Assembly: GCA_028865845.1 (NCBI GenBank)
Contig: JAGWJK010000020.1
Coordinates: 1-14,547 of the forward strand
DNA length: 14,547 nucleotides
DNA from: Rhizobiaceae bacterium
GTDB taxonomy: Bacteria > Pseudomonadota > Alphaproteobacteria > Rhizobiales > Rhizobiaceae
Reading direction: 5' to 3'
Both the position numbers and the translations under genes were made by a program. A model generated the notes under the pieces. The model searched no databases, was not told the DNA's origin, and saw nothing but the letters and a program-made list of their open reading frames with translations. Below, piece by piece: positions 1 to 12,882 of the stretch (position 1 is its first letter; every line of letters begins with the position of its first letter).

Positions 1-529
1 TTCCTACCGGCCGGACCAGTGCACGACGGAAATCGCCAGACGGTTGAACGCCGAGGGTATCAATTTCTACGCGCCGCTCGTGCTGAGTTCCGAACGACTG
101 GCGCAGGAGCTGCGGCAGGAGCCGGTGATCCAGGAGCAGCTTGCAACCATTCCTCACTGCAGCCTTGCGCTCTATTCCGTGGGCGGCATCGAGGCCGACA
201 GTCATCTGGTGAAGTGCGGGGCGTTGACAGCTGAGGAGATGCTGGCGCTTGGCGAGCAGGGCGCCGTCGGCGTCATCGCCGGTCAGGTCATCGATCGGGA
301 AGGGCAGCTGATGGACTGCGCCCATAACCGCCGCTGCATTTCGGCTGACCTCGACTCCATCCGCGCCATTCCGAAGCGGATGATGGTGGTACAGGAAGAC
401 GAGAAGCTTGAGGCGCTCATTGCCGCCATCAAGGGTGGATTTGCCTCGCATCTCATCATCACCGCCTCGATGGCCCGGCGATTGCTGGAGCGTTGGGGCG
501 TGGGGGCTGCGACCAATACGGTCGCATAA
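1..529 (+). CDS. SorC-family sugar-binding transcriptional regulator, C-terminal part (5' end outside window)
   Basis: The frame is open from base 2 and ends at TAA 527-529, giving about 175 residues. They match the effector-binding domain of SorC/DeoR-type regulators (as in SorC, CggR and Bacillus DeoR), which bind phosphorylated sugars. Visible landmarks are the GALTAEEMLALGEQGAVGVI stretch, followed by AGQVIDREGQ and a C-terminal KGGFASHLIITASMARRLL segment, in the usual family order. The N-terminal helix-turn-helix lies upstream of the window, so DNA binding cannot be checked. The next gene follows after 68 bases on the same strand with no obvious terminator, so the two are probably cotranscribed. 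By location it is the natural candidate to act at the inverted repeat 6513-6537, with a sugar phosphate of the pathway as ligand. The family call is fairly firm. The target and ligand are inferred. Confidence 0.82.
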   Translation, partial: SYRPDQCTTEIARRLNAEGINFYAPLVLSSERLAQELRQEPVIQEQLATIPHCSLALYSVGGIEADSHLVKCGALTAEEMLALGEQGAVGVIAGQVIDREGQLMDCAHNRRCISADLDSIRAIPKRMMVVQEDEKLEALIAAIKGGFASHLIITASMARRLLERWGVGAATNTVA

Positions 530-583
530 GTTTCAGCACATGTCGGGCAAGGCGGGTGCGGAGGCGCTGGTCTTGCCATGAAT

Positions 584-592
584 GGAGGGAGG
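584..592 (+). promoter_or_regulatory. Ribosome binding site fixing a TTG start
   Basis: GGAGGGAGG lies 5 bases before TTG 598. It decides the start of the aldolase/dehydrogenase, because no suitable in-frame ATG stands near it; the ATG at 579-581 is in another frame. Confidence 0.7.
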
Positions 593-597
593 ACATC

Positions 598-2652
598 TTG
601 GAAAATCTTTGGCGCGACAGCGATGCGGAAGCAATGGTCGAAGCCTATGCCAAAAAGGGCGTCAATCGCGACCTGGCGCTTCGAACCTATACGACACGGC
701 TGCTTGGGGGCGAGCCGCGCCTGGTGCTTCACGGCGGCGGCAATACCTCGGTAAAGACGTCGGTTACGGATCTGATCGGCGACACCTGGGATGTCCTCTG
801 CGTCAAGGGCAGCGGCTGGGACATGGGCACGATCGAGCCCGCGGGACTGCCCGCCGTCAAGATCGCGCCGCTTCTCAAGGCTCGCCATTTGGAGACATTG
901 TCGGACGAGGACATGGTGACGCTGCAGCGTGCCAATCTCATCGACCCCGCCTCGCCAAACCCGTCCGTGGAAGCCTTGCTGCACGCCTTCCTGCCGCACA
1001 AATTTGTCGACCATACCCATTCGACCGCGATCCTTGCCATTGCCGACCAAGCGCGAAGCAAGGAGATGAGCGCCGCCGTCTTCGGCACGAAAATGGGCTT
1101 CGTACCCTATATCATGCCGGGCTTTGCGCTCGCGAAAGCAGCAGCGGAGGTATTCGATCGCGATCCAAGCGTCGATGGCCTCATCCTCGACAAGCACGGC
1201 ATCTTCACCTTCGGCGATACGGCGAAGGAAGCTTATGACCGCATGATCCACTATGTAACGCTTGCCGAGGCTCACGTTCGCGTGCAAGGCAGGAACCCAT
1301 TTACGCCGGCGAGGCTTCCGGAAAAGCTCGCATCCTCAGGAGATATTGCCGCGATGCTGCGCGGCGCCGTTGCGGTCGCGCGCGGCGAAGGCCGGTATGA
1401 TCGCATGGTCAGCGAGTTTCGCACCTCGCCGGCGATCCTCGCATTCGTCAATGCGGCCGAGGTGCAGGACATGGCCGCCCGCGGCGTCTCGACGCCGGAT
1501 CTCTCCATTCGCATCAAGACCGGTCCGATGGTGCTGCCGGCGCCGGATGCCGACAAGATCAGAGAGTTCCGCGCCGTCATCGACGATCATGTCGCGGCTT
1601 TCGTTACGAACTACACAGAATATTTCCGCGCCAACGATGCCCGCGACGACGTCAAGCGCATCATGCTTGACCCGATGCCGCGGCTGACGCTGGTTCCGGG
1701 CGTCGGCATGTTCGGCCACGGCCGCACGCTGAAGGATGCCAAAATCGCCGCCGATGTCGGCGAGATGTGGATCGAGGCCGCACGCGACGCCGAGTCTATC
1801 GGACGTTTCGAGCCGGTGAGCCGGCCCGATCTCTTCGATCTCGAATACTGGTCGCTGGAGCAGGCAAAGCTTGCCGGCGCCAAGCCGAAGCCGCTGACGG
1901 GGATGGTGGCATTCGTGACCGGTGGTGCCGGTGCGATCGGCGCGGCAACGGCAAAGCTCTTTGCGCGTGAGGGCGCGCATGTCGTCGTTGCGGATCTCGA
2001 CGCCGGCAAGGCAGCGGAGGTCGCCAAGGCAGCCGGCAACCAATCGATCGGCGTCGGTTGCGACGTCACCGATGCCGCTTCCGTCCGTGCCGCCTTCGAC
2101 AAGGCCGTTTCAACCTATGGCGGCGTCGATATCATCGTCTCGAACGCCGGTGCGGCCTGGGAGGGCGCGATCGCCACGCTCGATGACAACCTGCTACGCA
2201 AGAGCTTCGAGCTGAATTTCTTCTCGCATCAATTGGTCGCCCAGAACGCAGTCCGGATCATGAAGCAGCAGGGAACGGGCGGCGTCCTGCTCTTCAATGC
2301 CAGCAAGCAGGCGGTCAATCCCGGTGCGAAATTCGGTGCCTACGGACTTCCCAAGGCCGCAACGCTTTTCCTGTCGCGGCAATATGCGCTGGAACATGGT
2401 GCCGATGGCATCCGCTCGAATGCGGTCAATGCCGACCGTATCCGCTCTGGCCTGCTGAACGACGAGATGATCGCCAGCCGCGCTGCGGCACGTGGTCTTT
2501 CGGTGAAGGACTACATGGGCGGCAATCTGCTTGGCCAGGAAGTCACCGCCGAGGATGTGGCACAGGCTTTCCTGCATCATGCGCTGGCGGAACGGACGAC
2601 GGCTGACGTCACCACCGTCGACGGCGGAAATATTGCAGCCGCGCTGCGCTGA
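598..2652 (+). CDS. Bifunctional class II aldolase / short-chain dehydrogenase (RhaD-like fusion)
   Basis: Protein of 684 residues, the usual size of rhizobial RhaD-type fusions, which split L-rhamnulose 1-phosphate into DHAP and lactaldehyde and then oxidise the aldehyde. The class II aldolase domain fills roughly residues 30-260: phosphate-binding HGGGNTS (45-51), candidate catalytic Glu125 in SVEALLHAFLP, and metal ligands His139, His141 (DHTHS) and His200 (DKHGIF). A linker leads to an SDR domain at about 435-684, with TGGAGAIG at the nucleotide fold, Asp466 after the second strand (suggesting NAD), NAG, and a catalytic Ser569-x12-Tyr582-x3-Lys586 set. Both active sites look intact. The TTG start follows a strong GGAGGGAGG. 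No rhamnose kinase or isomerase is nearby. With MtnK and MtnA in the locus, the likely substrate is a 5-substituted ribulose 1-phosphate, yielding DHAP plus (methylthio)acetaldehyde that the SDR reduces or oxidises. A true rhamnulose-1-phosphate aldolase remains possible. Confidence 0.88.
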   Translation: MENLWRDSDAEAMVEAYAKKGVNRDLALRTYTTRLLGGEPRLVLHGGGNTSVKTSVTDLIGDTWDVLCVKGSGWDMGTIEPAGLPAVKIAPLLKARHLETLSDEDMVTLQRANLIDPASPNPSVEALLHAFLPHKFVDHTHSTAILAIADQARSKEMSAAVFGTKMGFVPYIMPGFALAKAAAEVFDRDPSVDGLILDKHGIFTFGDTAKEAYDRMIHYVTLAEAHVRVQGRNPFTPARLPEKLASSGDIAAMLRGAVAVARGEGRYDRMVSEFRTSPAILAFVNAAEVQDMAARGVSTPDLSIRIKTGPMVLPAPDADKIREFRAVIDDHVAAFVTNYTEYFRANDARDDVKRIMLDPMPRLTLVPGVGMFGHGRTLKDAKIAADVGEMWIEAARDAESIGRFEPVSRPDLFDLEYWSLEQAKLAGAKPKPLTGMVAFVTGGAGAIGAATAKLFAREGAHVVVADLDAGKAAEVAKAAGNQSIGVGCDVTDAASVRAAFDKAVSTYGGVDIIVSNAGAAWEGAIATLDDNLLRKSFELNFFSHQLVAQNAVRIMKQQGTGGVLLFNASKQAVNPGAKFGAYGLPKAATLFLSRQYALEHGADGIRSNAVNADRIRSGLLNDEMIASRAAARGLSVKDYMGGNLLGQEVTAEDVAQAFLHHALAERTTADVTTVDGGNIAAALR

Positions 2653-2671
2653 TTTCAGCTGATTGCGGCTC

Positions 2672-2694
2672 GCCTCCCGCCTTGTGCGGGAGGC
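2672..2694 (+). terminator. Hairpin after the aldolase gene
   Basis: GCCTCCCGC (2672-2680), a 5-base loop and GCGGGAGGC (2686-2694) form a perfect 9-bp GC-rich stem 20 bases after the aldolase stop. The following bases (GTTCCTATT) are only weakly T-rich, so it may be an imperfect intrinsic terminator or a 3'-protecting hairpin. Confidence 0.5.
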
Positions 2695-2733
2695 GTTCCT
2701 ATTGCCTGACGCACCGACATCAACAAGCAACGG

Positions 2734-2758
2734 AAAAAGGCGGCCCGAAGGCCGCCTT
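2734..2758 (-). terminator. Rho-independent terminator of the ABC importer operon (UUCG loop)
   Basis: Read on the - strand, AAGGCGGCC-TTCG-GGCCGCCTT is followed directly by more T. This is a perfect 9-bp stem capped by a stable C(UUCG)G tetraloop with a T run, 25 bases downstream of the binding-protein stop. It is a textbook intrinsic terminator and separates the importer from the convergent aldolase gene. Confidence 0.88.
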
Positions 2759-2783
2759 AAAATTTGTCCGGTAGAGCCGGATA

Positions 2784-3836
2784 TTACTTCTTGCTCGGCA
2801 GCGGCATCCAGGCCGGCACGGCGACATCGGCATGAGCGAACTGCGGCAGCTTGGCGCCGAGCTCTTCCATGTTCTTGATGTCGGCATCCTTCAGCGCCTG
2901 CTGCGTGATCAGGGTCGGCGGCACGATAACGTTGTGGCCCGGATCCTGGCCGGCGAGCAGCATGGCAAGCGCGCGCACGGAGACCTGGCCGACGACGGCG
3001 GGGTTCGTTGCGGCTGTCGCGGCCCACGCGCTGTCGGGTTCGCGCATCGCGGCGATATCCGAGGTCGAGATATCGGCCGAGTAGATCTTCACGCTCGTCG
3101 AAAGCCCTGCCTCATCGACGGCAATCTTCACGCCCTTGGCGAATTCGTCGTAAGGCGCGAACATCACCTTGATGTCGGGATTGGCCGACAGCACCGAGCG
3201 TGCCTGGTTGGCAACCGAATTGGCGATCGGATTGTCCATCGTGCCGAACATGGCGGCCTCATGGATGCCCGAATACTTCTTCTTGAATTCCTTCCAGGTT
3301 TCGTCGCGGCGATCGAGCGGGGCGATGCCGGCGACATAGACGTAGCCGGCCTTCCAGCTTTCACCATTGTCCTTGATGGCCTGCTCGAGCGCCAGGCGCG
3401 CAAGATCGCGATCCGACTGTTCGATCTGCGGGATCTTCGGGTTCTCGACGTTGACGTCGAAGGCGACAACCTTGATGCCGGCGTCGACTGCACGCTGGGC
3501 CGCGTCCTTCATCGATTCCGTGAGGCCGTGCTGGATGATGATGCCGTCAACCTTCAGTGCAATTGCCTGATCGACCATGTCGGCCTGCACGGCCGCGTCC
3601 TGACGGCTGTCGAAGACGCGAAGATCGACGCCGAGAGCCTTGGCCTGGGCTTCGACGCCAGAGAGATAGGATTGGAAGAAGTCTCCAGTCGAAAGGTAAC
3701 GCACAAGTGCGATCTTCACCTTGCCGGGGTTGTCGAATGGCTTGGGCATGTCTGCGGCAAAGGCTGCGCTGGAAAAGGCAGTTGCCCCCATGAGGCCGAT
3801 CGCCAGCTTGCCGAGTGTTCTGCGGGTAATATTCAT
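2784..3836 (-). CDS. Periplasmic sugar-binding protein of an ABC importer (RbsB-like)
   Basis: Protein of 350 residues with an N-terminal export signal: TRRTLGK (a twin-arginine-like motif), a hydrophobic stretch and an AFA-AD cleavage site after residue 27. The mature part follows the ribose/simple-sugar binding fold (Peripla_BP_4 type). It opens with KIALVRYLSTGDFFQSYLSG, then AKALGVDLRVFDSRQD, DQAIALKVDGIIIQHG and a second lobe containing VMFAPYDEFAKGVKIAVDEA. The start is the ATG at 3836, set by GGAGGAG just upstream; the in-frame ATG five codons earlier lies before that site. It is the last of three importer genes, 60 bases after the permease. It should deliver the pathway's substrate, probably a ribose-like sugar such as 5-methylthioribose or 5-deoxyribose. 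The ligand cannot be read from sequence. Confidence 0.9.
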   Translation of the reverse strand: MNITRRTLGKLAIGLMGATAFSSAAFAADMPKPFDNPGKVKIALVRYLSTGDFFQSYLSGVEAQAKALGVDLRVFDSRQDAAVQADMVDQAIALKVDGIIIQHGLTESMKDAAQRAVDAGIKVVAFDVNVENPKIPQIEQSDRDLARLALEQAIKDNGESWKAGYVYVAGIAPLDRRDETWKEFKKKYSGIHEAAMFGTMDNPIANSVANQARSVLSANPDIKVMFAPYDEFAKGVKIAVDEAGLSTSVKIYSADISTSDIAAMREPDSAWAATAATNPAVVGQVSVRALAMLLAGQDPGHNVIVPPTLITQQALKDADIKNMEELGAKLPQFAHADVAVPAWMPLPSKK

Positions 3837-3896
3837 TTCTGTCTCCTCCACAATAGACTTTGTTGCTTATGCGTATGCGCGAAGGGCCTCCCAGCC

Positions 3897-4961
3897 CTAT
3901 CGTTTGCCTCTCCCCGAAAGAGCAAAGGTAAAGACCAGCGCGATGACCAGCACCGCTCCCTTGACGAAATCCTGGGTGTAATAAGGCGCGTTCATCATCG
4001 TCAGGCCCTGCAGCAGGACGCCGACGAACAGTGCGCCGATCGCGGTGCCGAAGGCATTCGGCTTGGCGACACCGAGCACGGCGAAACCGATCAGTGCCGC
4101 AGCGACCGCATCCAGCAGAAGATTGTTTCCGGAGGCGATGTCACCGCGGCCAAGGCGCGCGGCAAGCAGGATGCCGCCGATCGAAGCGAAGACGCCAGAG
4201 ATGACGTAGGCAAAGATCTTGTAGCCGTTGACCGGCGCACCGGCGAGCTGCGCTGCGCGCTCGTTCGAACCCACGGCATACATCATCCGGCCGAAGCGCG
4301 TATATTCCAGAAAGAACCAGATGAGCACGGCAAGCGCGATCAGCACGACCACCGAGACCGGCAGCAGGTTGGGCAATATGAAATCGAAGCGATGACGTCC
4401 GAGCGCCAGGAAGGCGGGACTGAAAGTGCCGTCCGCCGTGCTGCCATCCGGCATGCTCATGCCGGTCGCGATCGAGCGGCCTTCGGTCGGAATGCGCTGC
4501 AGGCCGACGAGCAGGAACATCATGCCGAGCGTCGCCAGCAGGTCCGGCACGCGCATGTAAACGACGAGAAAGCCGTTGATGAGCCCGATGACGATGCCGA
4601 TCAGCAGGCAGACGGCAATGGCGGTCAGGCCGTCGCCATTCATGATGACCATGATGTAGGACGAGGCCATCATCGCGGTCGTTGCGACCGAGCCGATCGA
4701 AAGATCGAAGCCCCCGACGACCATCGTCGCCGTCACGCCGAGCGCCAGGATGCCGGTGATCGAAACCGACTGCAGAATGAAGACGGCGCTTTGTGGCGAG
4801 GCAAAGCCGCTGGTGACGATCGAAAAATAGATGAGCATGCCGACGAGCAGCAGCAGAAAGCCGTAGCGGATCGCCAGATCGCGCATGCTTAAGCCCGCTG
4901 CCGGCGGCGGAACGAGTTTTGCCGGGGGTGCTGCAGCGATCGGAGTGTCGTGATCAGTCAT
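3897..4961 (-). CDS. Sugar ABC transporter permease (RbsC-like)
   Basis: Protein of 354 residues, typical for BPD_transp_2 permeases of the ribose/xylose type. A polar, proline- and alanine-rich tail of about 30 residues precedes a run of hydrophobic helices covering the rest of the protein. Family marks include GGFDLSIGSVATT in an early membrane segment and the cytoplasmic coupling-loop sequence GSNERAAQLAGAPV that contacts the ATPase. The ATG directly abuts the TGA of the ATPase gene (no spacer), so the two are translationally linked. Only one permease gene is present, so the channel is presumably a homodimer, as in RbsC systems. The family is clear and the substrate is inferred from context. 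Confidence 0.93.
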   Translation of the reverse strand: MTDHDTPIAAAPPAKLVPPPAAGLSMRDLAIRYGFLLLLVGMLIYFSIVTSGFASPQSAVFILQSVSITGILALGVTATMVVGGFDLSIGSVATTAMMASSYIMVIMNGDGLTAIAVCLLIGIVIGLINGFLVVYMRVPDLLATLGMMFLLVGLQRIPTEGRSIATGMSMPDGSTADGTFSPAFLALGRHRFDFILPNLLPVSVVVLIALAVLIWFFLEYTRFGRMMYAVGSNERAAQLAGAPVNGYKIFAYVISGVFASIGGILLAARLGRGDIASGNNLLLDAVAAALIGFAVLGVAKPNAFGTAIGALFVGVLLQGLTMMNAPYYTQDFVKGAVLVIALVFTFALSGRGKR

Positions 4962-6473
4962 TCAATTCACCATTCCATGCTGACCGGCGATTTCGGCCAG
5001 AAGCTTGTTCACATCGATGCCGGCATTGCGGTGTTCGCCCACGAGCGTCTGTTCCGACATCACCAGGATCCGGTCGGCGATTTCGAAAGCCTCGTCGAGC
5101 TCGGTAAGGAAGACCACGGTTGCCCGTCCTTTCGCCGAGGCACGAAGCTTGCTCGCGATATCGCGGCGCGCGGCGATATCGACGCCCTGGAAAGGCTCGT
5201 CGAGCACCATTAGCCGGCATGGCTGGCTGAGCCAACGCGCGACCATGACCTTCTGCAGATTGCCGCCGGACAGCGTGTTCATCTCGTCGCGCTCGGAGCG
5301 GCAGACGATGCCAAGCGCGGAAATCTGCCGCCTTGCTTCGCCACGCTCCTCACTGCGGCTTGAAACGCCGCCAAGATGGGCGAGCTGCCTCAGGAACGGC
5401 AGGCTGATGTTCTCATAGATATTGAAATCGGGGACGATGCCGCTTTCGGCGCGATCCTTGGCAACGAGGAACACCCCGGCGGCAATCGCCTGCCGTGGCG
5501 TGCGCGGCTGATACGGCTGCCCGTCGAGCGACATGCCGCCCGCCACCGGCTGTCTTGCACCGAACAGCGTTTCGGCAAGCGCAGTCTTACCAACGCCGAC
5601 GAGGCCGGTGACGGCGACTACCTCGCCCTCACACAAGGAAAAAGAAAAGGGCCGCGAGCCGGAGCCGAGCTGAAGATTTTCCGCCGTCAAGATCGCGCGT
5701 CCGCCATCCTGAACGACAATGCCGCCGTGGCTGGTGGTCTTGCCCAGCATGGCGTTGACCGCACCTTCATAATCGAGTTCCGGGCCTGTGAAAGTGCCGG
5801 TGATGCGGCCATCGCGCAGGCTGACGATACTGTCGGCCAGGCGGCGGATATCGGACATGCGGTGCGAGATGTAGAGAATGGCGACCCCGCGGCTGCGCAG
5901 GCGGTCGACGAGTTGGAACAGCCGGTCCGCTTCGGCGCTCGACAGAGACGAGGTCGGTTCGTCGAGGATGAGCACTTTCGGCTCATGCGCCATGGCCCGA
6001 GCAATCGCCACCATCTGCCGATCGGCGAGCGACAAATCGGCAATGCTGGCGTTTAAATCGATGGAAAGGCCCATCCGATCGGCAACGGCCTTCGCCTCGC
6101 GCCGGACGCGTCGCGGGTTGAAGAACCAGCGCGCCGAGCGGCCATTCAGGCGATCGAGCGTCAGGTTGGTGGCGACATCGAGATCGGCGACCACGCCGTC
6201 ATTGATGTTCTGATGAACCGTGACCACGCCAGAGCGAATGGCTTCGGCCGGTGATGAGGGGAGGAAGTCCTTGCCAGCCAGCGTGATGCGGCCGGCGTCG
6301 CGCGTGTAGACACCGCTGACGATGCGCACCAGCGTCGACTTGCCCGCGCCGTTAGCCCCCATCAAGGCGGTGACAGAGCCGGCACGAAGCGCCAGATCGA
6401 CCCCGCCCAAGACCTGGATACGACCAAAAGATTTCCGCAATCCTTCGATGCGGAACACCGGTTCTTCGCTCAT
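4962..6473 (-). CDS. Sugar ABC transporter ATP-binding protein, tandem domains (RbsA-like)
   Basis: Protein of 503 residues with two nucleotide-binding domains, as usual for carbohydrate-type (CUT2) importers. First domain: Walker A GANGAGKST near residues 39-47, a divergent signature LSLADRQ near 147-153, and Walker B LILDEPTSSLS near 168-178. Second domain: a shortened P-loop GLVGVGKT near 290-297, signature LSGGNLQ near 401-407, and Walker B LMVLDEPFQGVD. This asymmetry, with one degenerate half, is normal in RbsA/MglA. The start at 6473 was chosen because GGGAGG stands 6 bases before it; an ATG two codons earlier would sit directly on that site. It is the first gene of the importer operon and runs divergently from mtnK across a shared control region. 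Confidence 0.93.
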   Translation of the reverse strand: MSEEPVFRIEGLRKSFGRIQVLGGVDLALRAGSVTALMGANGAGKSTLVRIVSGVYTRDAGRITLAGKDFLPSSPAEAIRSGVVTVHQNINDGVVADLDVATNLTLDRLNGRSARWFFNPRRVRREAKAVADRMGLSIDLNASIADLSLADRQMVAIARAMAHEPKVLILDEPTSSLSSAEADRLFQLVDRLRSRGVAILYISHRMSDIRRLADSIVSLRDGRITGTFTGPELDYEGAVNAMLGKTTSHGGIVVQDGGRAILTAENLQLGSGSRPFSFSLCEGEVVAVTGLVGVGKTALAETLFGARQPVAGGMSLDGQPYQPRTPRQAIAAGVFLVAKDRAESGIVPDFNIYENISLPFLRQLAHLGGVSSRSEERGEARRQISALGIVCRSERDEMNTLSGGNLQKVMVARWLSQPCRLMVLDEPFQGVDIAARRDIASKLRASAKGRATVVFLTELDEAFEIADRILVMSEQTLVGEHRNAGIDVNKLLAEIAGQHGMVN

Positions 6474-6492
6474 CTCCATCCTCCCGAACATG

Positions 6493-6522
6493 ATGCTAGG
6501 ATGACAGATCATCAAATGTCAA
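6493..6522 (-). promoter_or_regulatory. Putative promoter of the ABC importer operon
   Basis: On the - strand TTGACA (6522-6517) and TAGCAT (6498-6493) are 18 bases apart. The perfect -35 hexamer lies inside the left arm of the inverted repeat. The predicted start, near 6486, gives a very short leader that just includes the GGGAGG of the ATPase gene. Confidence 0.45.
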
Positions 6523-6537
6523 GTGCGTTGACATTTG
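6513..6537. promoter_or_regulatory. Operator: perfect 10-bp inverted repeat in the divergent control region
   Basis: CAAATGTCAA (6513-6522) and TTGACATTTG (6528-6537) are exact reverse complements separated by GTGCG. The element lies between the divergent importer and mtnK operons, and each arm contains a TTGACA hexamer facing outward. A bound protein would block both promoters at once. Partial outlying half-sites ATGACA (6501-6506) and TGTCAT (6561-6566) could help a tetrameric regulator. The SorC-type protein encoded at the start of the window is the obvious candidate binder, which is inference. Confidence 0.75.
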
Positions 6538-6556
6538 CCAAAGTTGTCCATATCAG
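6528..6556 (+). promoter_or_regulatory. Putative promoter of the mtnK operon
   Basis: TTGACA (6528-6533), a 17-base spacer and TATCAG (6551-6556) make a good sigma-70-like match. The -35 hexamer is part of the right arm of the inverted repeat. Transcription would start near 6563 and leave a leader of about 100 bases before mtnK. Confidence 0.55.
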
Positions 6557-6585
6557 ATGGTGTCATGATCGTCGATCGAGGGGTC

Positions 6586-6616
6586 GTCGGCTTGCCTAAG
6601 AGGAGGGCAAACCGAC
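6586..6616 (+). other. Leader RNA hairpin upstream of mtnK
   Basis: GTCGG (6586-6590) pairs with CCGAC (6612-6616), and TTGCC (6592-6596) pairs with GGCAA (6606-6610), with one C/A mismatch between the two blocks. The nine-base loop carries a purine-rich AGAGGAG. It lies inside the predicted mtnK leader. I do not recognise it as a known riboswitch, and it has no T run to make it an intrinsic terminator. Confidence 0.35.
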
Positions 6617-6664
6617 TGCGAGGATTGGAAACGAAGCCGCGCCGACGCGATCTGGGAGGAAAAA

Positions 6665-7936
6665 ATGACGGATGCGAAACCGTTCGTGGCGCTTTGCCCC
6701 GAAACGTTGCCGATGCGGCTTGGCGCCTTGCCGGTGCTGAAGGAAAAGCTCGGAACCAACACCAGTTGCTGGCGCGTGAAAGAAGTCGGCGACGGCAATC
6801 TCAACCTGGTCTTCATCGTCGAAGGCGAACAGGGAAAAGCCATCGTCAAGCAGGCTCTGCCTTACGTGCGCCTGGTCGGCGAAAGCTGGCCGCTGCCGCT
6901 GAAGCGGTCGTTCTTCGAGTACCACGCGCTGATGCGGCAGGCGGAACGCGATCCCGGCATGGTGCCGAAGATTTTCCATTTCGATGCCGATCAGGCAATC
7001 ATCGTCATGGAATTCCTGTCGCCGCACATTATTCTGCGGCGCGCCCTGATCGAAGGCCAACAACTGCCGAAGATCGGCCGGGACCTTGGCTTGTTTGTCG
7101 CCCGCACGCTTTTTCGCGGTTCCGATCTCGCCATGCCCGCACGCAAGCGGAAGGAAGATCTGGCTTTGTTTTCCGACAATGTCGAACTGTGCGACATTAC
7201 GGAAAACCTCGTCTTTTCGGACCCCTATTTCGAAGCGACGCTCAACAGGCATACATCGCCGCAGCTCGACGGCATCGTCGCTGAGCTCCGCTCTGACCGG
7301 GACCTGAAGGTCGAGGCACAGAAACTCAAGCACCTGTTCGCCGCCAAGGCCGAGACCTTGTTGCACGGCGATCTGCATACCGGCTCCGTCATGGTGACGC
7401 CGGACGAGACACGCGTCATCGATCCCGAATTCGCCTTCTACGGCCCAATTGCCTTTGACGTCGGCATGATGATCGCCAATTTCTGGATGAGCTATTTCTC
7501 GCAGGCCGGTCACGAGACAAATGGCGATCGCGAGGGCATGCGCAGCTATCTGCTCGGCGTCGTCGAGGAGATATGGATGACCTTCCGCGCCGAATTCTCC
7601 AACCTCTGGCGCAGCGAACGCAACGGCATGCTCTATCAACGGTCGCTGTTCGAAGATCGTGGCGACACACTCGGCGCCGAGCAGGCGCTCGACCATGTCC
7701 TGCACGAAATCTGGACTGATATGCTGGGCTTTGCCGGTGTTGAAATCCACCGCCGCATCCTAGGCCTTGCCCACAACGCCGATTTCGAAGCGATTGCCGA
7801 TGAAAACGTACGCGCCCGTTGCGAGACGAAGGCGCTCAAGCTCGGCCGTCACCTCGCGGTCAATCGCCGCCATATCCACAGCCTCGCAGAGATCAATTCC
7901 CTGGCCGAACGGCTCGAGAAGGAGACTGTCATTTGA
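6665..7936 (+). CDS. mtnK: S-methyl-5-thioribose kinase
   Basis: Protein of 423 residues, slightly longer than the roughly 400 typical of MtnK. It belongs to the aminoglycoside-phosphotransferase-like kinase fold and phosphorylates C1 of 5-methylthioribose with ATP; relatives also accept 5-deoxyribose. Visible marks are [11 protein letters not shown] at the glycine-rich N-lobe loop (about residues 40-50), the basic [11 protein letters not shown] strand, the catalytic loop HGDLHTGS at 234-241 with Asp236, and the metal-binding [16 protein letters not shown] from about 252. HGDLHTGS with DPEFAFYGP is diagnostic for MtnK among these kinases. The start ATG follows GGGAGG at 6654-6659. It is the first gene of a five-gene operon and overlaps the start of mtnA by four bases. 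Confidence 0.94.
7919..7924 (+). promoter_or_regulatory. Ribosome binding site fixing the mtnA TTG start
   Basis: AAGGAG ends 8 bases before TTG 7933. That TTG overlaps the mtnK stop in the sequence TTGA, a typical coupling arrangement, so it is preferred to the in-frame ATG at 7819 inside mtnK. Confidence 0.65.
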
Positions 7937-9027
7937 AAGTAGGAGCACGTCACTATCACACCATCTGGCTGAGCGAGGATGGCGCGTCCGTCGACATCAT
8001 CGATCAGCGGTGGCTGCCGCATGAATTCCGCGTCGTCACGCTGAAGACCGTCGACGATATCGCTGTCGCCATTCGAGAGATGTGGGTGCGCGGTGCACCG
8101 CTGATCGGCGTCACCGCCGCCTATGGCGTCGCCATCGCGATGGTATCCGACAGCAGCGACGCCTCGCTCGATGCCACCTGGGAAAAGCTCCACGAGACTA
8201 GGCCAACGGCTATCAACCTGCGCTGGGCGCTCGACAACATGCGCAATGTCCTCAGCAAATTGCCGCCGGGCGAACGGGTCGAGGCAGCCTACAGGCGTGC
8301 GGCTGAGATCGCCGCAGAGGATGTGGATCTCAATCGCAGCATCGGCATGAACGGCCTTGCCGTCATCCGCGACATCGCCGCCCGCAAGAAGCCGGGCGAG
8401 CCGGTCAATATCCTCACGCACTGCAATGCCGGCTGGCTTGCGACCGTGGATTACGGCACGGCGACTGCGCCGATCTATCTAGCCGCTGAAGAAGGCATCC
8501 CGGTCCATGTCTATGTGGACGAGACCCGGCCGCGCAACCAGGGCGCCCAGCTAACCGCCTGGGAGCTGAACGGCCATGGTGTGCCGCATACGTTAATCGT
8601 CGACAATGCCGGTGGCCATCTTATGCAGCATGGCGATATCGACATAGTGATCGTCGGCACTGACAGAACGACGGCGAACGGAGACGTCTGCAACAAGATC
8701 GGCACCTATCTGAAAGCGCTCGCCGCCAAGGACAACAACGTTCCCTTTTATGTAGCGCTGCCATCGCCGACGATCGACTGGACGGTGCATGACGGCGTCA
8801 AAGAAATACCGATCGAGGAGCGCAGCAGCGACGAAGTGACTTTCGTGCAAGGCCGCGGCGCCGACGGCGCGATCGTGCGCGTGCGCGTCTCGCCGGAAGG
8901 CAGTCCCGCCGCCAATCCGGCATTCGACGTGACGCCGGCCCGCCTGATCACCGGCCTTATTACCGAACGCGGCATAGCCGAAGCCTCGCCCGCGGGGCTG
9001 AAGGCGCTTTTTCCGGAACGGAGATAG
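7933..9027 (+). CDS. mtnA: S-methyl-5-thioribose-1-phosphate isomerase
   Basis: Protein of 364 residues, a normal MtnA length, in the family related to eIF2B alpha subunits. It opens the furanose ring of 5-methylthioribose 1-phosphate and isomerises it to the ribulose 1-phosphate; the same enzyme type acts on 5-deoxyribose 1-phosphate. Marks visible are [30 protein letters not shown] with catalytic Cys164, [20 protein letters not shown], and [17 protein letters not shown] with catalytic Asp244. Both catalytic residues are in place. The TTG start overlaps the mtnK stop by four bases and has AAGGAG upstream. The next gene starts 3 bases after its TAG, so expression is tightly linked. Together with mtnK it defines the substrate class as a 5-modified ribose. 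Confidence 0.95.
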
Positions 9028-9030
9028 TTG

Positions 9031-9966
9031 ATGACCTTACGAAACAAGCAGCGCACGGAAGATGTGGCGGCTGGTATCCGCAAGCGCGTCTTCCTGCATA
9101 CGATGCGCAACAATGGAGGCTATCTGAGCCAGGCCTGTTCGGCCGCGGAAAGCCTCGCATTTCTCTATAATGAAGCGCTGAACCTCGGCGAGCCGACCCT
9201 TCCGAAAGTGCCCCTGCCCTTTGCCGGCGTCCCCTCGTCCAGCAATCCCGATGCCTTCACCGGCGCCGGCTATCACGGACCTTTTGCGCCGGACTACGAT
9301 CGGTTCATCGTCTCCCCCGCCCACTATGCGCTCGTTATCTATTCCGCGCTGATCGAGGTTGGCCGCATGGACGAGGATGCGCTGGCGCATTTCAACCGCG
9401 ATGGCAGTTCGGTCGAAATGATCGGCGCCGAACACAGTCCGGGCATGGAAGTCACGACGGGTTCGCTTGCGCAGGGGCTTTCGATGGCGGCGGGAATTGC
9501 CTGGGCGCGCAAGCGCCATGGCGAGCCGGGCAAGGTCTGGGTCTATATGTCGGATGGCGAATTCCAGGAGGGCCAAACCTGGGAGTGCCTGGCGGCGATG
9601 AGTTACCACGGCATCGACAACATCAGAGTCGTCGTCGACGTCAACCGGCAGCAATGCGACGGTGCCATGTCGTCCGTGCTCGATCTCGGCGACTTGCCGG
9701 CTCGGGTCTTGTCGTTCGGTGCCGCCTGCCGCTCGATCGATGGGCATGATCTGGATGCATTCCGCAATGCGACCGAGAGTGCGGAAGTCGGCAAGCCGCT
9801 GATCATCCTTGCCAATACCTCGCCTTTTGAAGGCATGCCGTTCCTGAAGAAGCGCTTTCCGCGCCTTCACTATGTCCGTTTCAAATCCGCCGAAGAGCGC
9901 CATGAAATGCAGGCCGCCCTTAGCGTCGAGCTTGGCGTCGATCCGGCAGAAATCGCGAGGGCCTGA
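9031..9966 (+). CDS. Transketolase-like protein, N-terminal (diphosphate-binding) subunit
   Basis: Protein of 311 residues forming the first half of a split transketolase. The thiamine-diphosphate/Mg motif begins at SDGEFQEG (174-181; Ser replaces the usual Gly) and ends near VDVNRQQCDG with Asn205. SPAHYA (His98) matches the conserved active-site His near the start of the family, and MEVTTGSLAQGLSMAAGIAWARK is the normal helix after it. In most transketolases a conserved His stands in the GHxGG motif; here the segment reads RNNGGYLS, apparently with Asn27 in its place. About 30 extra residues rich in Pro/Gly (around 55-85) precede His98. The start ATG is set by GGAG 7 bases upstream. A general pentose-phosphate role is possible, but the operon position between mtnA and the RLP gene points to a dedicated, unusual substrate. 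Confidence 0.88.
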   Translation: MTLRNKQRTEDVAAGIRKRVFLHTMRNNGGYLSQACSAAESLAFLYNEALNLGEPTLPKVPLPFAGVPSSSNPDAFTGAGYHGPFAPDYDRFIVSPAHYALVIYSALIEVGRMDEDALAHFNRDGSSVEMIGAEHSPGMEVTTGSLAQGLSMAAGIAWARKRHGEPGKVWVYMSDGEFQEGQTWECLAAMSYHGIDNIRVVVDVNRQQCDGAMSSVLDLGDLPARVLSFGAACRSIDGHDLDAFRNATESAEVGKPLIILANTSPFEGMPFLKKRFPRLHYVRFKSAEERHEMQAALSVELGVDPAEIARA

Positions 9967-9968
9967 TC

Positions 9969-10970
9969 ATGGTCGAAATTGTCAACCGCCCCTATGCCAA
10001 GGCCTTCGAAACCTTCGCCTCCGCCCGGCCTGAAGTTCTCTGCCTCTCGGCCGATCTGACCTCGTCCTGCGAAGTCGACGGTTTTCGCGATCGTCATGGC
10101 GATCAATTCCTTTCGCTCGGCATGGCGGAGCAGAATATGCTCTCCTTTGCCGGCGGTCTGGCGATGCAGGGTTTCCGTCCCTTCATCCATACCTTTTCCG
10201 TGTTCCTCTACCGGCGGCCCTATGATCAGCTGATCAACTCCATCGCCTATTCCAACCGCAAGGTCCGGATGATGGGTTTTCTTCCCGGCATCACCACCCC
10301 CGGCGGGATCACCCATCAGGCGATCGAGGACATATCCGTCATGCGCGCCATCCCGAACATGACAGTGCTCGAAACCGGTGACGCAACCGAAGTCGAGAGC
10401 GTTTTGGAAGTGGCCGACAGCATCGATGGTCCGGTCTATGTCCGCGTGCTGCGTGGTGAGGTGCCGCGGCTGTTTTCGACGCCCTTCGAATTCAACCGGC
10501 TGCGGACGTTGAGCGAAGGCGATGACATTCTCGTCGTCACGTCAGGCGTCTGCACTGAAGAGGCGCTGCGCGCGGCCGGTCCGCTCAAGGAGCGCGGCAT
10601 CGGCGTGCACCACCTTCATGCCTCGACGCTGAAACCCTTCGATCGCGATGGGCTGCTCAAGGCGGTGCGCGGCAAGAAGGGAGTGGTGACGCTCGAAAAT
10701 CACACGATCAACGGCGGGCTCGGCTCGCTCGTTGCTGAAATCCTGGCGGAAGAAGGCATTGGCGTCCGCCTTCGCCGGCTGGGACTGGAAGATACCTTCG
10801 CCCACGGTGCCTCCAAACCCTACCTCATGAAGAAATACGGGCTCGACGCCGGAGCGCTGACGCGGGCAATCGGCAAGCTTATCGGTCGCGACCTCGATAT
10901 CGCCGATGCCGAGCTCGATGCCGTGCGCCTCGATACGGTTCATTCCGCGCAAAAGGCGGAAGCACTCTGA
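9969..10970 (+). CDS. Transketolase-like protein, C-terminal (pyrimidine-binding) subunit
   Basis: Protein of 333 residues, the partner half of the preceding gene. It carries the pyrimidine-binding domain with the activating glutamate Glu54 in LGMAEQNMLSFAGGLA, followed by FRPFIHTFSVFLYRRPYDQL and GITTPGGITHQAIEDIS, then VYVRVLRGEVPRL and a C-terminal transketolase domain from about residue 190. The ATG comes two bases after the N-subunit stop, so the halves are made together and should form an alpha2beta2 enzyme. Split transketolases are known, for example in D-apiose catabolism, where one acts on apulose 4-phosphate. Here the likely role is thiamine-dependent cleavage or transfer of a ketose phosphate made by the RLP, which is inference. 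The stop overlaps the RLP start by one base (TGATG). Confidence 0.88.
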   Translation: MVEIVNRPYAKAFETFASARPEVLCLSADLTSSCEVDGFRDRHGDQFLSLGMAEQNMLSFAGGLAMQGFRPFIHTFSVFLYRRPYDQLINSIAYSNRKVRMMGFLPGITTPGGITHQAIEDISVMRAIPNMTVLETGDATEVESVLEVADSIDGPVYVRVLRGEVPRLFSTPFEFNRLRTLSEGDDILVVTSGVCTEEALRAAGPLKERGIGVHHLHASTLKPFDRDGLLKAVRGKKGVVTLENHTINGGLGSLVAEILAEEGIGVRLRRLGLEDTFAHGASKPYLMKKYGLDAGALTRAIGKLIGRDLDIADAELDAVRLDTVHSAQKAEAL

Positions 10971-12106
10971 TGGCCCCGCGTTTTTCGGTCACATACTGGC
11001 TCGACGCCAGCGACGAGAAGGAAGCAAGGGCTCGTGCGCTCGACGTCTCCGTCGAACAGACGGTCGAAATTCCCCGCCATATCGTGCCTCATGGTTATGT
11101 CGAGGAAGAGATACTCGGCCGGCTGGAAAGTCTTGTGCCCGGCCACGACAGCCGACGCGGCTTTCTCGCGGAGATATCCTACAGCGAGGACGATGTCGGC
11201 GGCGACTTTCTGCAGCTGCTGAACATCGTCTTCGGCAACTCCTCGATCAAGACCGGCACTCGCGTTGAGTCAATCACCCTCTCCGACGGCTTGCGGACGC
11301 TTTGCCCGGGACCTCGATTCGGTGCCGAGGGACTGCGCACGCGAACCGGCATCACGTCCGGGCCCTTGGTGATGTCGGCGATCAAGCCCGTCGGCCTGTC
11401 GACCGCCAGGCTTGCCGACCTTGCCCACCGCTTTGCGCTGGGTGGCATGCATCTGATCAAGGACGATCACGGGCTGGTCGATCAACCGACATCACCCTAT
11501 AGCGAGCGCGTGGCTGCCTGTGTGGCCGCCGTCGCCGAAGCCAATGCCAAGACCGGCCTGCATTGCGCTTACGTGCCCAATATTACCGGCCCGGCGTCAC
11601 AGATCGTCGAGCGCGCCTATATGGCGAAGGAGGCCGGAGCGGGCGCGGTGATGCTCGCACCATCGCTCGTCGGCTTCGATATATCCCGCAGCCTTGCAGC
11701 CGATGCCGATTTCGGCTTGCCGATCATCTCCCACCCGACCTTTGCCGGCGCAAACGTCATCACGCCGACAACGGGGTTCTCGCATCGCTTCTTTTTTGGA
11801 ACACTGCAGCGGCTGATGGGCGTGGATGCCGTGGTGTTTCCGAATTTCGGCGGCAGGTTCGGCTTTTCGCGCGAGGAGTGCCTTTCCATCCTTGAAGGAT
11901 GCACCGAGGATCTCGGCGGCCCGAAGCCGATATTCCCGGCGCCCGGAGGCGGCATGACGTTCGCGCGGATACCGGAAATGCAAAGCGCCTATGGCGATCA
12001 TGTGATCTATCTGGTCGGCGGCGCCCTGCTGCGTGAAGACGATCTGGTGGCGGCATCGCAGAAATTGCGGGCGGCGATAGCGGATGTGACCGCGAAATCG
12101 GGCTAG
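10970..12106 (+). CDS. RuBisCO-like protein (RLP, form IV type)
   Basis: Protein of 378 residues, shorter than true large subunits. It has a small N-terminal domain (about 1-120) and a TIM barrel. Lys139 (SAIKPVG) and Lys164 (LIKDDHG) match the catalytic and carbamylated lysines of RuBisCO with the right 25-residue spacing, and Asp166 matches a metal ligand. The second acidic ligand, normally Glu, is His167. Loop 6 (FPNFGGRFGFS, 290-300) lacks the essential Lys. A His is kept at SHPTFAG (255), and APGGG near 326-330 and LVGG near 346-349 match the phosphate sites. It therefore cannot be a carboxylase but could enolise a ketose phosphate. In Rhodospirillum rubrum an RLP isomerises 5-methylthioribulose 1-phosphate to 1-methylthio-xylulose 5-phosphate; linkage to mtnK and mtnA suggests similar chemistry. 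Other RLPs decarboxylate or hydrolyse apiose-derived acids. Confidence 0.92.
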   Translation: MAPRFSVTYWLDASDEKEARARALDVSVEQTVEIPRHIVPHGYVEEEILGRLESLVPGHDSRRGFLAEISYSEDDVGGDFLQLLNIVFGNSSIKTGTRVESITLSDGLRTLCPGPRFGAEGLRTRTGITSGPLVMSAIKPVGLSTARLADLAHRFALGGMHLIKDDHGLVDQPTSPYSERVAACVAAVAEANAKTGLHCAYVPNITGPASQIVERAYMAKEAGAGAVMLAPSLVGFDISRSLAADADFGLPIISHPTFAGANVITPTTGFSHRFFFGTLQRLMGVDAVVFPNFGGRFGFSREECLSILEGCTEDLGGPKPIFPAPGGGMTFARIPEMQSAYGDHVIYLVGGALLREDDLVAASQKLRAAIADVTAKSG

Positions 12107-12188: not shown

Positions 12189-12440
12189 TCAATATCGGAT
12201 GAACACCCCGGCTTCAATTACGGCCGCCAGAAACGAATCGCGTGCGTCAGCGGCCGTGAGGCGACCTTCGTGTGCATCGAGCAAGGCTTGCTTGGCGGCG
12301 ACGTAGCTTTCCTCGTCGAACTCCTTCGGCCATTCCAGCAGCAAATATTCCGCCGCACGTTCGGTGCTGCCGATCGTGACATATTGGCCGAGCTTGTCGG
12401 TCTCGACGACGATGGGTTCATCCCAGAACTGTTTCTCCAT
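12189..12440 (-). CDS. DUF982 small protein
   Basis: Protein of 83 residues of the DUF982 family, small cytoplasmic proteins common in rhizobia and without an assigned role. Visible features fit the family: an initial FWDEPIVVET strand, YVTIGSTERAAEYLLLEWP, a central tyrosine-containing helix (YVAAKQALLDAHEG) and the closing ADARDSFLAAVIEAGVFI. The start ATG has AAAGGAG upstream. It converges on the RLP operon and diverges from a second DUF982 gene, so it is not part of the catabolic operon. No signal peptide or membrane segment is seen. Confidence 0.82.
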   Translation of the reverse strand: MEKQFWDEPIVVETDKLGQYVTIGSTERAAEYLLLEWPKEFDEESYVAAKQALLDAHEGRLTAADARDSFLAAVIEAGVFIRY

Positions 12441-12615: not shown

Positions 12616-12882
12616 ATGACAAATCCAAGCGTTGATACGGTCGAAATCGCCCTCGACAAGGCCGAGACCCGTTATGTCATAAGCGATGTTCAGAGCTTGG
12701 CGGAGGCATTGCTCGCCCGCTGGCCCGAGCGTTTGCGCGGGAGGGCGCACCTTAGAGCACGTAAGAAGTGCCACGCCGCGCTGGAAGGGAAATGCAAGCC
12801 GATAGAGGCGAGGACGGCATTTATCGCCGCCTGTCGCGAAGCTGGCATTTCGGTTTTCCCTGACGACGCCCAACGTCCTTAG
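12616..12882 (+). CDS. DUF982 small protein
   Basis: Protein of 88 residues and a second DUF982 member. The pattern is the same as in its divergent neighbour: an opening strand (VEIALDKAETRYVISDVQSL), AEALLARWPERLRG, ARKKCHAALEGKCKPIEAR and the closing TAFIAACREAGISVF. The ATG follows AGGAGG at 12602-12607 with 8 bases between. The two DUF982 proteins differ widely outside these marks, so they are old paralogues and not a recent duplication. Function is unknown for the family. The call rests on the WP...AR.AF..A..EAG.. pattern. Confidence 0.85.
   Translation: MTNPSVDTVEIALDKAETRYVISDVQSLAEALLARWPERLRGRAHLRARKKCHAALEGKCKPIEARTAFIAACREAGISVFPDDAQRP

Follow-up and report, generated by a model that had tools for sequence, protein, structure and literature searches.

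The stretch of DNA analysed here, referred to as the window, spans all 14,547 nucleotides of contig JAGWJK010000020.1 in the draft genome, 82% complete, of a Rhizobiaceae bacterium, and it carries a sugar-uptake and degradation locus in which genes for a kinase (mtnK) and an isomerase (mtnA) are followed by the two halves of a transketolase-like enzyme (TKT; tktN and tktC) and by a gene for a RuBisCO-like protein (RLP; rlp). The recurring core of this system is the RLP together with the unusual, usually split TKT, nearly always in a genome that encodes MtnA; in rhizobia this core is preceded by mtnK and the importer as a front end. It is likely that the locus imports a 5-substituted ribose, most probably 5-methylthioribose (MTR), which would be degraded through the RLP and the TKT without oxygen chemistry.

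Conservation of the locus was assessed by scanning named genomes with an RLP alignment, and the 80 loci compared here are the best 80 of 563 confirmed stretches, ranked by likeness to the window RLP. The genome of the window itself has its near relatives, as judged from the searches, among the Rhizobiaceae. The importer genes for the substrate-binding protein (SBP), permease and ATPase, together with mtnK, mtnA, tktN, tktC and rlp, are all present in 39 of the 41 Rhizobiales loci, with the two incomplete loci being a 7.8 kb contig (L104) and an RLP alone (L118). Thus, the eight-gene cluster is not a product of chance. A second rhizobial group, with RLPs that are 41-51% identical, has the same kinds of gene in a different order, and a gene of the RbsD/FucU mutarotase family is found in eight loci of this group, as well as in L064 and L139. 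The locus is plasmid-borne in several relatives. The four genomes of the same genus that were searched (G029, G128, G194 and G250) are without the RLP, the RLP-type TKT and MtnA, and the locus therefore looks accessory.

Outside the rhizobia, TKT genes lie within 7 kb around the RLP in 27 of 39 loci (28 by a looser count), in mostly metagenome-assembled genomes of Bacillota, Chloroflexota, Spirochaetota, Nitrospirota, Pseudomonadota (Thiotrichaceae), Planctomycetota, Calditrichota and candidate division FCPU426. Two copies encode a single-chain TKT, one of 644 residues (L151) and one in an open frame of 702 residues (L219), and an unplaced bacterium (L139) has a near-rhizobial set in the order mtnK-mtnA-RbsD-tktN-tktC-rlp-aldolase/short-chain dehydrogenase (SDR). 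In the fetched stretches of the 39 non-rhizobial loci, mtnK is present in four and mtnA in nine. The initial annotation had described the locus as built around mtnK, mtnA, an RLP and a split transketolase, a description that has to be narrowed to the RLP and the TKT, with mtnK rejected as a part of the core.

The same association is evident within the family, where among 297 genomes (the window's own included) the RLP occurs in 34, the RLP-type TktC in 36 and both in 33 (Fisher p 3e-39, uncorrected for kinship). These counts leave out two RLP matches of 30-32% identity and, with at least 58% identity being required of TktC, six copies of 41-44%. The RLP is without a TKT in G273 only. This RLP (L220:9237-10244) is an orphan with a shortened N end and without the other cluster genes nearby, and neither the RLP-type TKT nor MtnA was found in its genome. 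The two genes are both present yet apart in two genomes of the family (G173 and G233) and two outside it (G700 and G707). At the three TKT loci of the family that have no RLP (L213, L214 and L215), examined at the level of Pfam and BLAST, a relative of the FGGY kinases is encoded near each TKT, and L214 also has a SorC-type regulator.

MtnA scored above its cut-off in 32 of the 34 family genomes with an RLP (the exceptions being G254 and G273) versus 84 of the 263 others, where eight genomes with sub-cut-off matches were scored as lacking it, and the window mtnA is the sole MtnA match of its own genome. For comparison across phyla, 58 RLP genomes were searched, representing 24 of the 34 rhizobial genomes and 34 of the 39 genomes of other loci (L120, L125, L130, L150 and L127 were left out). 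An MtnA match is present in 57 of these (56 above cut-off), and in 50 of the 51 genomes that have both RLP and TKT (49 above cut-off). Homologous loci that keep the RLP and TKT without mtnK or mtnA had been named beforehand as evidence against an MtnK/MtnA pathway; such loci are common as far as gene neighbourhoods go, but the separation from MtnA does not extend to whole genomes. In addition, MTA phosphorylase (MTAP), acting on methylthioadenosine (MTA), is above cut-off in none of the 24 rhizobial genomes but in 28 of the 34 from outside the rhizobia, where it accompanies the TKT in 21 of 27 cases. Since MtnA is near-constant and MTAP is confined to genomes outside the rhizobia, the RLP-TKT pair seems to lie downstream of MtnA, whatever the source of the 1-phosphate. 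In rhizobia that source would be the imported sugar plus MtnK, and in most other phyla it would be MTA cleaved by phosphorolysis.

The model for acireductone dioxygenase (MtnD) had no match in the window's own genome, which is 82% complete, and its only matches in the 58 RLP genomes are five short fragments. These score 20-28 bits, with four barely exceeding the cut-off of 27, and are read as other cupins. The proposal that the route runs in place of methionine regeneration through MtnB/C/D therefore stands as regards MtnD. Methionine itself may still be regenerated in another way, as suggested by a Bacillota locus (L132) where tktN-tktC-rlp is followed by one opposite open frame and then by genes for MetX (477.9 bits, cut-off 331), a Cys/Met pyridoxal-phosphate (PLP) enzyme, a DUF2292 protein and CysK (462.3 bits, cut-off 351).

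What the RLP does is suggested by its relatives. An RLP that is 69% identical to that of the window is called a 5-methylthioribulose-1-phosphate isomerase in its NCBI record, and the best PDB match of the window RLP, 3qfw, is presumably R. palustris RLP1. The RuBisCO N-domain model had no match in the window's own genome, the domain probably being too diverged. In R. rubrum and R. palustris, as described in two reports, the RLP converts 5-methylthioribulose-1-phosphate to 1-methylthioxylulose-5-phosphate, and the cupin encoded next to it is a 1-methylthioxylulose-5-phosphate methylsulfurylase that releases methanethiol (PMC5893883, PMC4958253); the former also gives the products of RLP1 as 1-methylthioxylulose-5-phosphate and its ribulose epimer, in a 3:1 ratio. 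RLPs of other Alphaproteobacteria, 36-41% identical to the window RLP, are likewise followed by a cupin (four were scanned), and in the alignment the window RLP agrees with the cupin-linked RLPs at columns of conserved lysine, aspartate and histidine.

The TKT and the cupin behave as alternative partners of the RLP. In all, 74 RLP genomes were searched for a methylsulfurylase-type cupin (E 1e-20), and 66 of these also for the TKT. In the 66 genomes searched both ways, the TKT is found in 53, the cupin in nine, both in none and neither in four; two of the last (G691 and G699) have an ABC transporter-FGGY kinase-RLP arrangement, and the others are G702, whose 88-bit cupin match is far weaker than those elsewhere, and G704. 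Seven of the eight genomes searched for the cupin only are positive, and in the eighth (G523) the contig ends near the RLP. At this threshold the window's own genome and all 53 TKT genomes are without a match to the cupin. The RLP tree, of 78 rows, includes both the window RLP and the cupin-linked, isomerase-type RLPs and shows that partners switch; many of its deep forks are unresolved, its outgroups are long-branched and nine rows have unusual composition. The cupin label takes four changes on this tree. For instance, the cupin-linked Bacillota loci L140 and L156 stand beside the TKT locus L132 (98/69), and the cupin locus L121 beside the TKT locus L155 (89/87), while a cupin clade of 13 rows sits inside the proteobacterial RLP group. 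That a single RLP family has either of two partners is the best indication that both partners use the same RLP product, and the window RLP is thus predicted to be a 1,3-isomerase of 5-methylthioribulose-1-phosphate (or another 5-substituted ribulose-1-phosphate). It had been left open whether the RLP isomerises or enolises; its presence in one tree with isomerase-type RLPs is in line with isomerisation, and the enolase option falls with the MtnW scores given below.

The TKT that replaces the cupin is itself unusual. The alignments comprise the 53 TktN and 58 TktC rows that passed filters for identity (>45%) and length, and, in E. coli TktA numbering, D155 and H261 are kept in every TktN and E411, H473 and R520 in every TktC. 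H26, H100 and D469, residues that touch donor and acceptor hydroxyls in classical transketolases, are changed throughout: H26 is tyrosine in all 53 TktN rows, none of which retains the GHP motif that includes H100, and D469 is glycine in all 58 TktC rows, whereas E. coli TktA and two full-length TKTs of the window's own genome keep all three. TKT copies that are unlinked to an RLP, or in genomes without one, share the residue pattern of the RLP-linked copies, and in the sample examined a glycine at position 469 is limited to this TKT family. A second split TKT in the window's own genome (L209; G000:C1222:7036-8888) has tyrosine at H26 and no GHP motif, and lies among sugar-acid dehydratase-like genes and genes for an SDR, a 2-hydroxyacid dehydrogenase and a fused pyruvate-dehydrogenase E1-like protein.

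From these elements the following route can be proposed, in which the reactions of MtnK, MtnA and RLP type have support in the literature on related enzymes. MtnK would phosphorylate imported MTR to the 1-phosphate, MtnA would then give 5-methylthioribulose-1-phosphate, and the RLP would shift the carbonyl along the chain to yield 1-methylthioxylulose-5-phosphate. This compound is configured like xylulose, as transketolase donors are, and the TKT, a thiamine diphosphate (ThDP) enzyme, would cut it between C2 and C3 to give glyceraldehyde-3-phosphate and a ThDP-bound C2 unit carrying the methylthio group. The favoured view is that this unit expels methanethiol by beta-elimination, and that what remains departs in acyl form, for example as acetyl phosphate or acetate; alternatively, methylthioacetaldehyde could be released as such, or the C2 unit transferred to an aldose. 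Precedents for such beta-elimination are phosphoketolase and sulfoacetaldehyde acetyltransferase. The aldolase/SDR fusion encoded in the window is probably a parallel dihydroxyacetone phosphate (DHAP)-type branch for 5-deoxyribulose-1-phosphate and some methylthioribulose-1-phosphate, combined with an aldehyde oxidoreductase, much as R. palustris runs RLP1 beside the aldolase Ald2 (PMC5893883). Near TKT copies that lack an RLP, the FGGY kinases could make 1-substituted xylulose-5-phosphates directly.

Confidence differs between the parts of this route. It is high for the RLP and TKT acting in series on the MtnA product, and moderate for a methylthio sugar as the main substrate; the C2 unit may lose methanethiol on the TKT. 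More tentatively, and with somewhat less than even confidence, the split TKT can be put forward as a new ThDP enzyme, a thiol-eliminating 1-methylthioxylulose-5-phosphate ketolase that forms glyceraldehyde-3-phosphate, methanethiol and acetate or acetyl phosphate. Together with the RLP and MtnA it would provide a third oxygen-independent fate of 5-methylthioribulose-1-phosphate, in addition to the isoprenoid and DHAP shunts, spread over about eight phyla, organised in rhizobia as a regulon for imported MTR, and dispensing with the RLP where an FGGY kinase makes the 5-phosphate.

Genes near some copies point towards sulfur. The cupin locus L140 parallels L132 in having, in this order, a frame similar to Cys/Met PLP enzymes, MetA, the cupin, a CoA-binding protein, the RLP and CysK, and among the fused TKTs that of L151 is preceded by cysteine synthase and that of G700 (L219) by a Cys/Met PLP relative. 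Such methionine and cysteine genes near few RLP-TKT copies are suggestive only. At L129 the gene 3' of the RLP resembles methylthioinosine phosphorylase/MTA phosphorylase (239 bits, cut-off 223). On plasmid p-SCP4 of Ponticoccus alexandrii (L222:605-9128), genes for a nucleoside phosphorylase, a deaminase-like amidohydrolase, MtnA, an S/N-oxide reductase (BisC family, 901 bits, below the cut-off of 1017), TktN, TktC and the RLP form a run that looks like a system for using MTA as its sulfoxide or as a nucleoside. Relatives of this reductase (46-55% identity) occur at the RLP-TKT locus L040 and at two of the TKT loci without an RLP (L213 and L215), and at a further RLP-TKT locus, L043, the last 75 residues of the reductase (82%) stand at the contig edge ahead of tktN. 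The methionine/cysteine genes, the S/N-oxide-reductase-like genes and the lack of a convincing MtnD all fit a methylthio pathway.

Several observations weigh against this interpretation. The locus sample, being ranked by likeness to the window RLP, favours TKT-type RLPs; the TKT was sought in only nine of the 16 cupin genomes; and the RLP tree has no row from R. rubrum or R. palustris, with the link to them being made by the cupin neighbours and 3qfw. Three family genomes (G085, G186 and G208) have the TKT but no RLP, and G254 has the RLP and TKT but no MtnA match. Of the 27 non-rhizobial TKT loci, three (L131, L132 and L151) have a methionine or cysteine gene homologue at a distance of no more than 7 kb from the RLP. 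Two Chloroflexota loci (L135 and L144) have a sugar ABC transporter, an FGGY kinase and the RLP in genomes without TKT or cupin, and Vibrio nigripulchritudo has a TKT-RLP-FGGY kinase arrangement with no mtnA in the 17 kb examined, arrangements which imply that other substrates exist. Finally, among 12 control split TKTs not tied to an RLP, seven have tyrosine at H26 and seven have no histidine at H100, and the aligned letter at H100 and H461 varies with the sequence set. Thus, the changes at H26 and H100 are no proof of a donor without a C1 hydroxyl, and loss of H100 alone was rejected as such a proof.

The closest rival takes the same enzymes and changes the substituent, with 5-deoxyribose as the main substrate: MtnK and MtnA would form 5-deoxyribulose-1-phosphate, the aldolase/SDR fusion would be the main route to DHAP and acetaldehyde, and the RLP would make 1-deoxyxylulose-5-phosphate, from which the TKT would release glyceraldehyde-3-phosphate and an acetaldehyde unit. 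Published 5-deoxyribose salvage sets are clusters of kinase, isomerase and class II aldolase genes, four of the sets drawn having sugar transporter genes and one a fucose-mutarotase homologue (PMC6079011), and the aldolase fusion and the RbsD/FucU genes noted above would suit this substrate. The sulfur-linked neighbours of several RLP-TKT loci (MetX, CysK, S/N-oxide reductase and methylthioinosine phosphorylase) speak against it, the pair also occurs without a nearby aldolase, and a drain on 1-deoxyxylulose-5-phosphate would presumably waste an isoprenoid precursor, making 5-deoxyribose an unlikely main substrate. Another pentose with C5 free or differently substituted (OH or other), from which the RLP would make an ordinary or substituted xylulose-5-phosphate for a TKT acting as a more or less classical ketol transferase, draws on the importer, which resembles ribose/arabinose importers, on the RbsD family, which includes ribose pyranases, and on the FGGY kinases by the Vibrio TKT-RLP pair, the two Chloroflexota RLPs and all three RLP-less TKTs of the family. 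Such a substrate is distinctly improbable given that both MtnK and MtnA exceed their equivalog cut-offs by a wide margin, that MTAP accompanies most non-rhizobial TKTs, that the cupin filling the same slot elsewhere releases methanethiol and that the classical donor and acceptor residues of the TKT are lost.

Two further explanations place the locus in established pathways. In one, the TKT would replace 1-deoxyxylulose-5-phosphate synthase (DXS) or feed 1-deoxyxylulose-5-phosphate in an isoprenoid shunt. TktC does reach 170.4 bits on the DXS model, in one relative TktN is labelled by RefSeq as a DXS N-terminal-domain protein, and seven of 60 genomes, all with the TKT, have no DXS match (E 1e-100); yet the score is far under the cut-off of 465.95, and six of these seven are Chloroflexota (one of them putatively), in which a mevalonate route is possible. 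A separate, true DXS is present in 53 of the 60 genomes, that of the window among them, and the TKT was rejected as its replacement; an isoprenoid shunt is accordingly given very little credence. In the other, the RLP would be an MtnW-type enolase of classical methionine salvage, as partial matches to two MtnW models might suggest. Both scores are far under their cut-offs (202.6 versus 409 bits and 161 versus 513.6 bits), no convincing MtnD was present in the genomes searched, and N90 of the RLP occupies the column of a lysine of MtnW, so that the enolase assignment was rejected and this reading is the least probable of all. A methylthio sugar processed by the RLP and TKT remains the preferred account.

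The features of the window are listed in Table 1, and all named parts of the locus in the initial annotation, from regulator to RLP, were recovered by matches to family models. Gene starts were picked by eye from sequence context. For the aldolase/SDR fusion (TTG at 598) and the ABC ATPase (open frame from 6515) the choice was made by the ribosome-binding site, and for the SBP (open frame from 3851) an internal ATG was taken. From mtnK to rlp, neighbouring genes abut or overlap: the mtnA start, TTG at 7933, overlaps the mtnK stop, tktN begins immediately 3' of mtnA (an alternative ATG at 9031 is possible), and the rlp start overlaps the tktC stop. The importer genes are of a ribose/arabinose-like type, and gene content bears out the view of the cluster as an import and breakdown regulon for a 5-substituted ribose acting through MtnK and MtnA. 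Past the cluster are two back-to-back DUF982 genes, at 12189-12440 (-) and 12616-12879 (+), and an open frame (13380-14547) that leaves the contig end and, on inspection by eye, may encode a permease/ATPase of type I secretion.

Table 1. Features of the sugar locus in the window (ABC, ATP-binding cassette; scores in bits)
Feature	Position	Strand	Support or remark
SorC/DeoR-type regulator, C-terminal sugar-binding part	2..529	+	PF04198 120.9; contig edge removes rest
Class II aldolase/SDR fusion	598..2652	+	NF006192 1150 (cut-off 639); PF00596 + PF13561
Sugar ABC SBP, RbsB-like	2784..3836	-	PF13407 121.6
Sugar ABC permease	3897..4961	-	PF02653 145
Sugar ABC ATPase, two ABC domains	4962..6473	-	PF00005 165, 2 stretches
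Operator palindrome CAAATGTCAA-N5-TTGACATTTG	6513..6537		Between divergent importer and enzyme operons
mtnK, 5-methylthioribose (5-substituted ribose) kinase	6665..7936	+	TIGR01767 499.9 (cut-off 275); PDB 2pyw, 2olc
mtnA, 5-methylthioribose-1-phosphate isomerase	7933..9027	+	TIGR00512 441.6 (cut-off 279)
tktN, ThDP-binding half of split TKT	9028..9966	+	PF00456 62.4 (cut-off 22); PDB 6yak
tktC, pyrimidine and C-terminal half of split TKT	9969..10970	+	PF02779/PF02780; PDB 6yaj
rlp, RLP	10970..12106	+	PF00016 72.9 (cut-off 30.1); PDB 3qfw, E 9e-69

The palindrome CAAATGTCAA-N5-TTGACATTTG occurs at a single site in the window and in none of 200 shuffles, and it overlaps a -35-like TTGACA of an importer-facing promoter-like site identified in a promoter scan. 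Among the rhizobial divergent regions examined, 57 of 65 retain the core of the palindrome (48 of 55 once identical sequences are removed). In R. rosettiformans, where plasmid L224 has a complete copy of the SorC-type regulator gene, the operator is found once, at the same position, with none ahead of the regulator gene. The suggestion that one operator is common to the importer and enzyme operons is thereby borne out, and the SorC-type regulator is predicted to bind at 6513-6537 and to act on both operons from this single site.

The RLP-TKT locus appears to represent a new form of MTA/MTR salvage. No paper was found that joins transketolase with RLP, methylthioribulose, methylthioxylulose, methylthioadenosine or methionine salvage, in a search that covered subscription literature thinly, which agrees with the earlier remark that no described pathway combines these parts. 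One paper (PMC8102628) describes promiscuous action of transketolase on free 5-deoxyribose as acceptor, a reaction distinct from the one proposed here; it also refers to a transketolase step that has been suggested for 5-deoxyribulose-1-phosphate salvage in archaea. The occurrence of a TKT in the cupin's place across phyla suggests a direct, testable role for RLPs, many of which are without an assigned one, above all in anaerobes. If the proposal is true, bacteria would have an extra route for disposing of methylthioadenosine without oxygen chemistry that yields triose phosphate, methanethiol, a volatile sulfur compound, may be released, and a transketolase with a new donor would be revealed.

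Each of the known systems shares some parts with the window. Universal methionine salvage (MtnBCD or MtnW/X/D) likewise uses MtnK and MtnA, but the 58 genomes lack a convincing MtnD match and the window RLP is not of the MtnW type. The apionate RLPs (OiaX) also belong to rhizobial sugar-catabolism loci, but have other neighbours, and the window RLP, at 76.7 bits against a cut-off of 700, was rejected as an OiaX. The split transketolase of Carboxydothermus (6yaj, 6yak) is similarly encoded by two genes and is the best PDB match of both window halves, yet it keeps the GHP and EDG motifs, both of which the RLP-linked family is without; with classical transketolase the family shares the ThDP and catalytic residues D155, H261, E411 and H473 but not the contacts H26, H100 and D469. 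The DHAP shunt and 5-deoxyribose salvage (DrdK, DrdI, DrdA; Ald2) resemble the locus in their clustered kinase, isomerase and class II aldolase, sometimes with a transporter and a fucose-mutarotase-like gene, and such enzymes turn over 5-deoxyribose and, in vitro, 5-methylthioribose (PMC6079011). In the window, by contrast, the aldolase is fused to an SDR and the RLP and split TKT are added, a pair that recurs without the aldolase. A further relative is the MTA-isoprenoid shunt of R. rubrum and R. palustris (RLP1 plus cupin), which is also oxygen-independent, passes through methylthioribulose-1-phosphate by way of MtnA and has the same RLP catalytic columns. There the cupin leads to 1-deoxyxylulose-5-phosphate, whereas here a ThDP enzyme stands in the place of the cupin (found in 0 of 53 TKT genomes), the products are probably glyceraldehyde-3-phosphate and a C2 unit, and the pathway of the window would be fed by an importer and a kinase.

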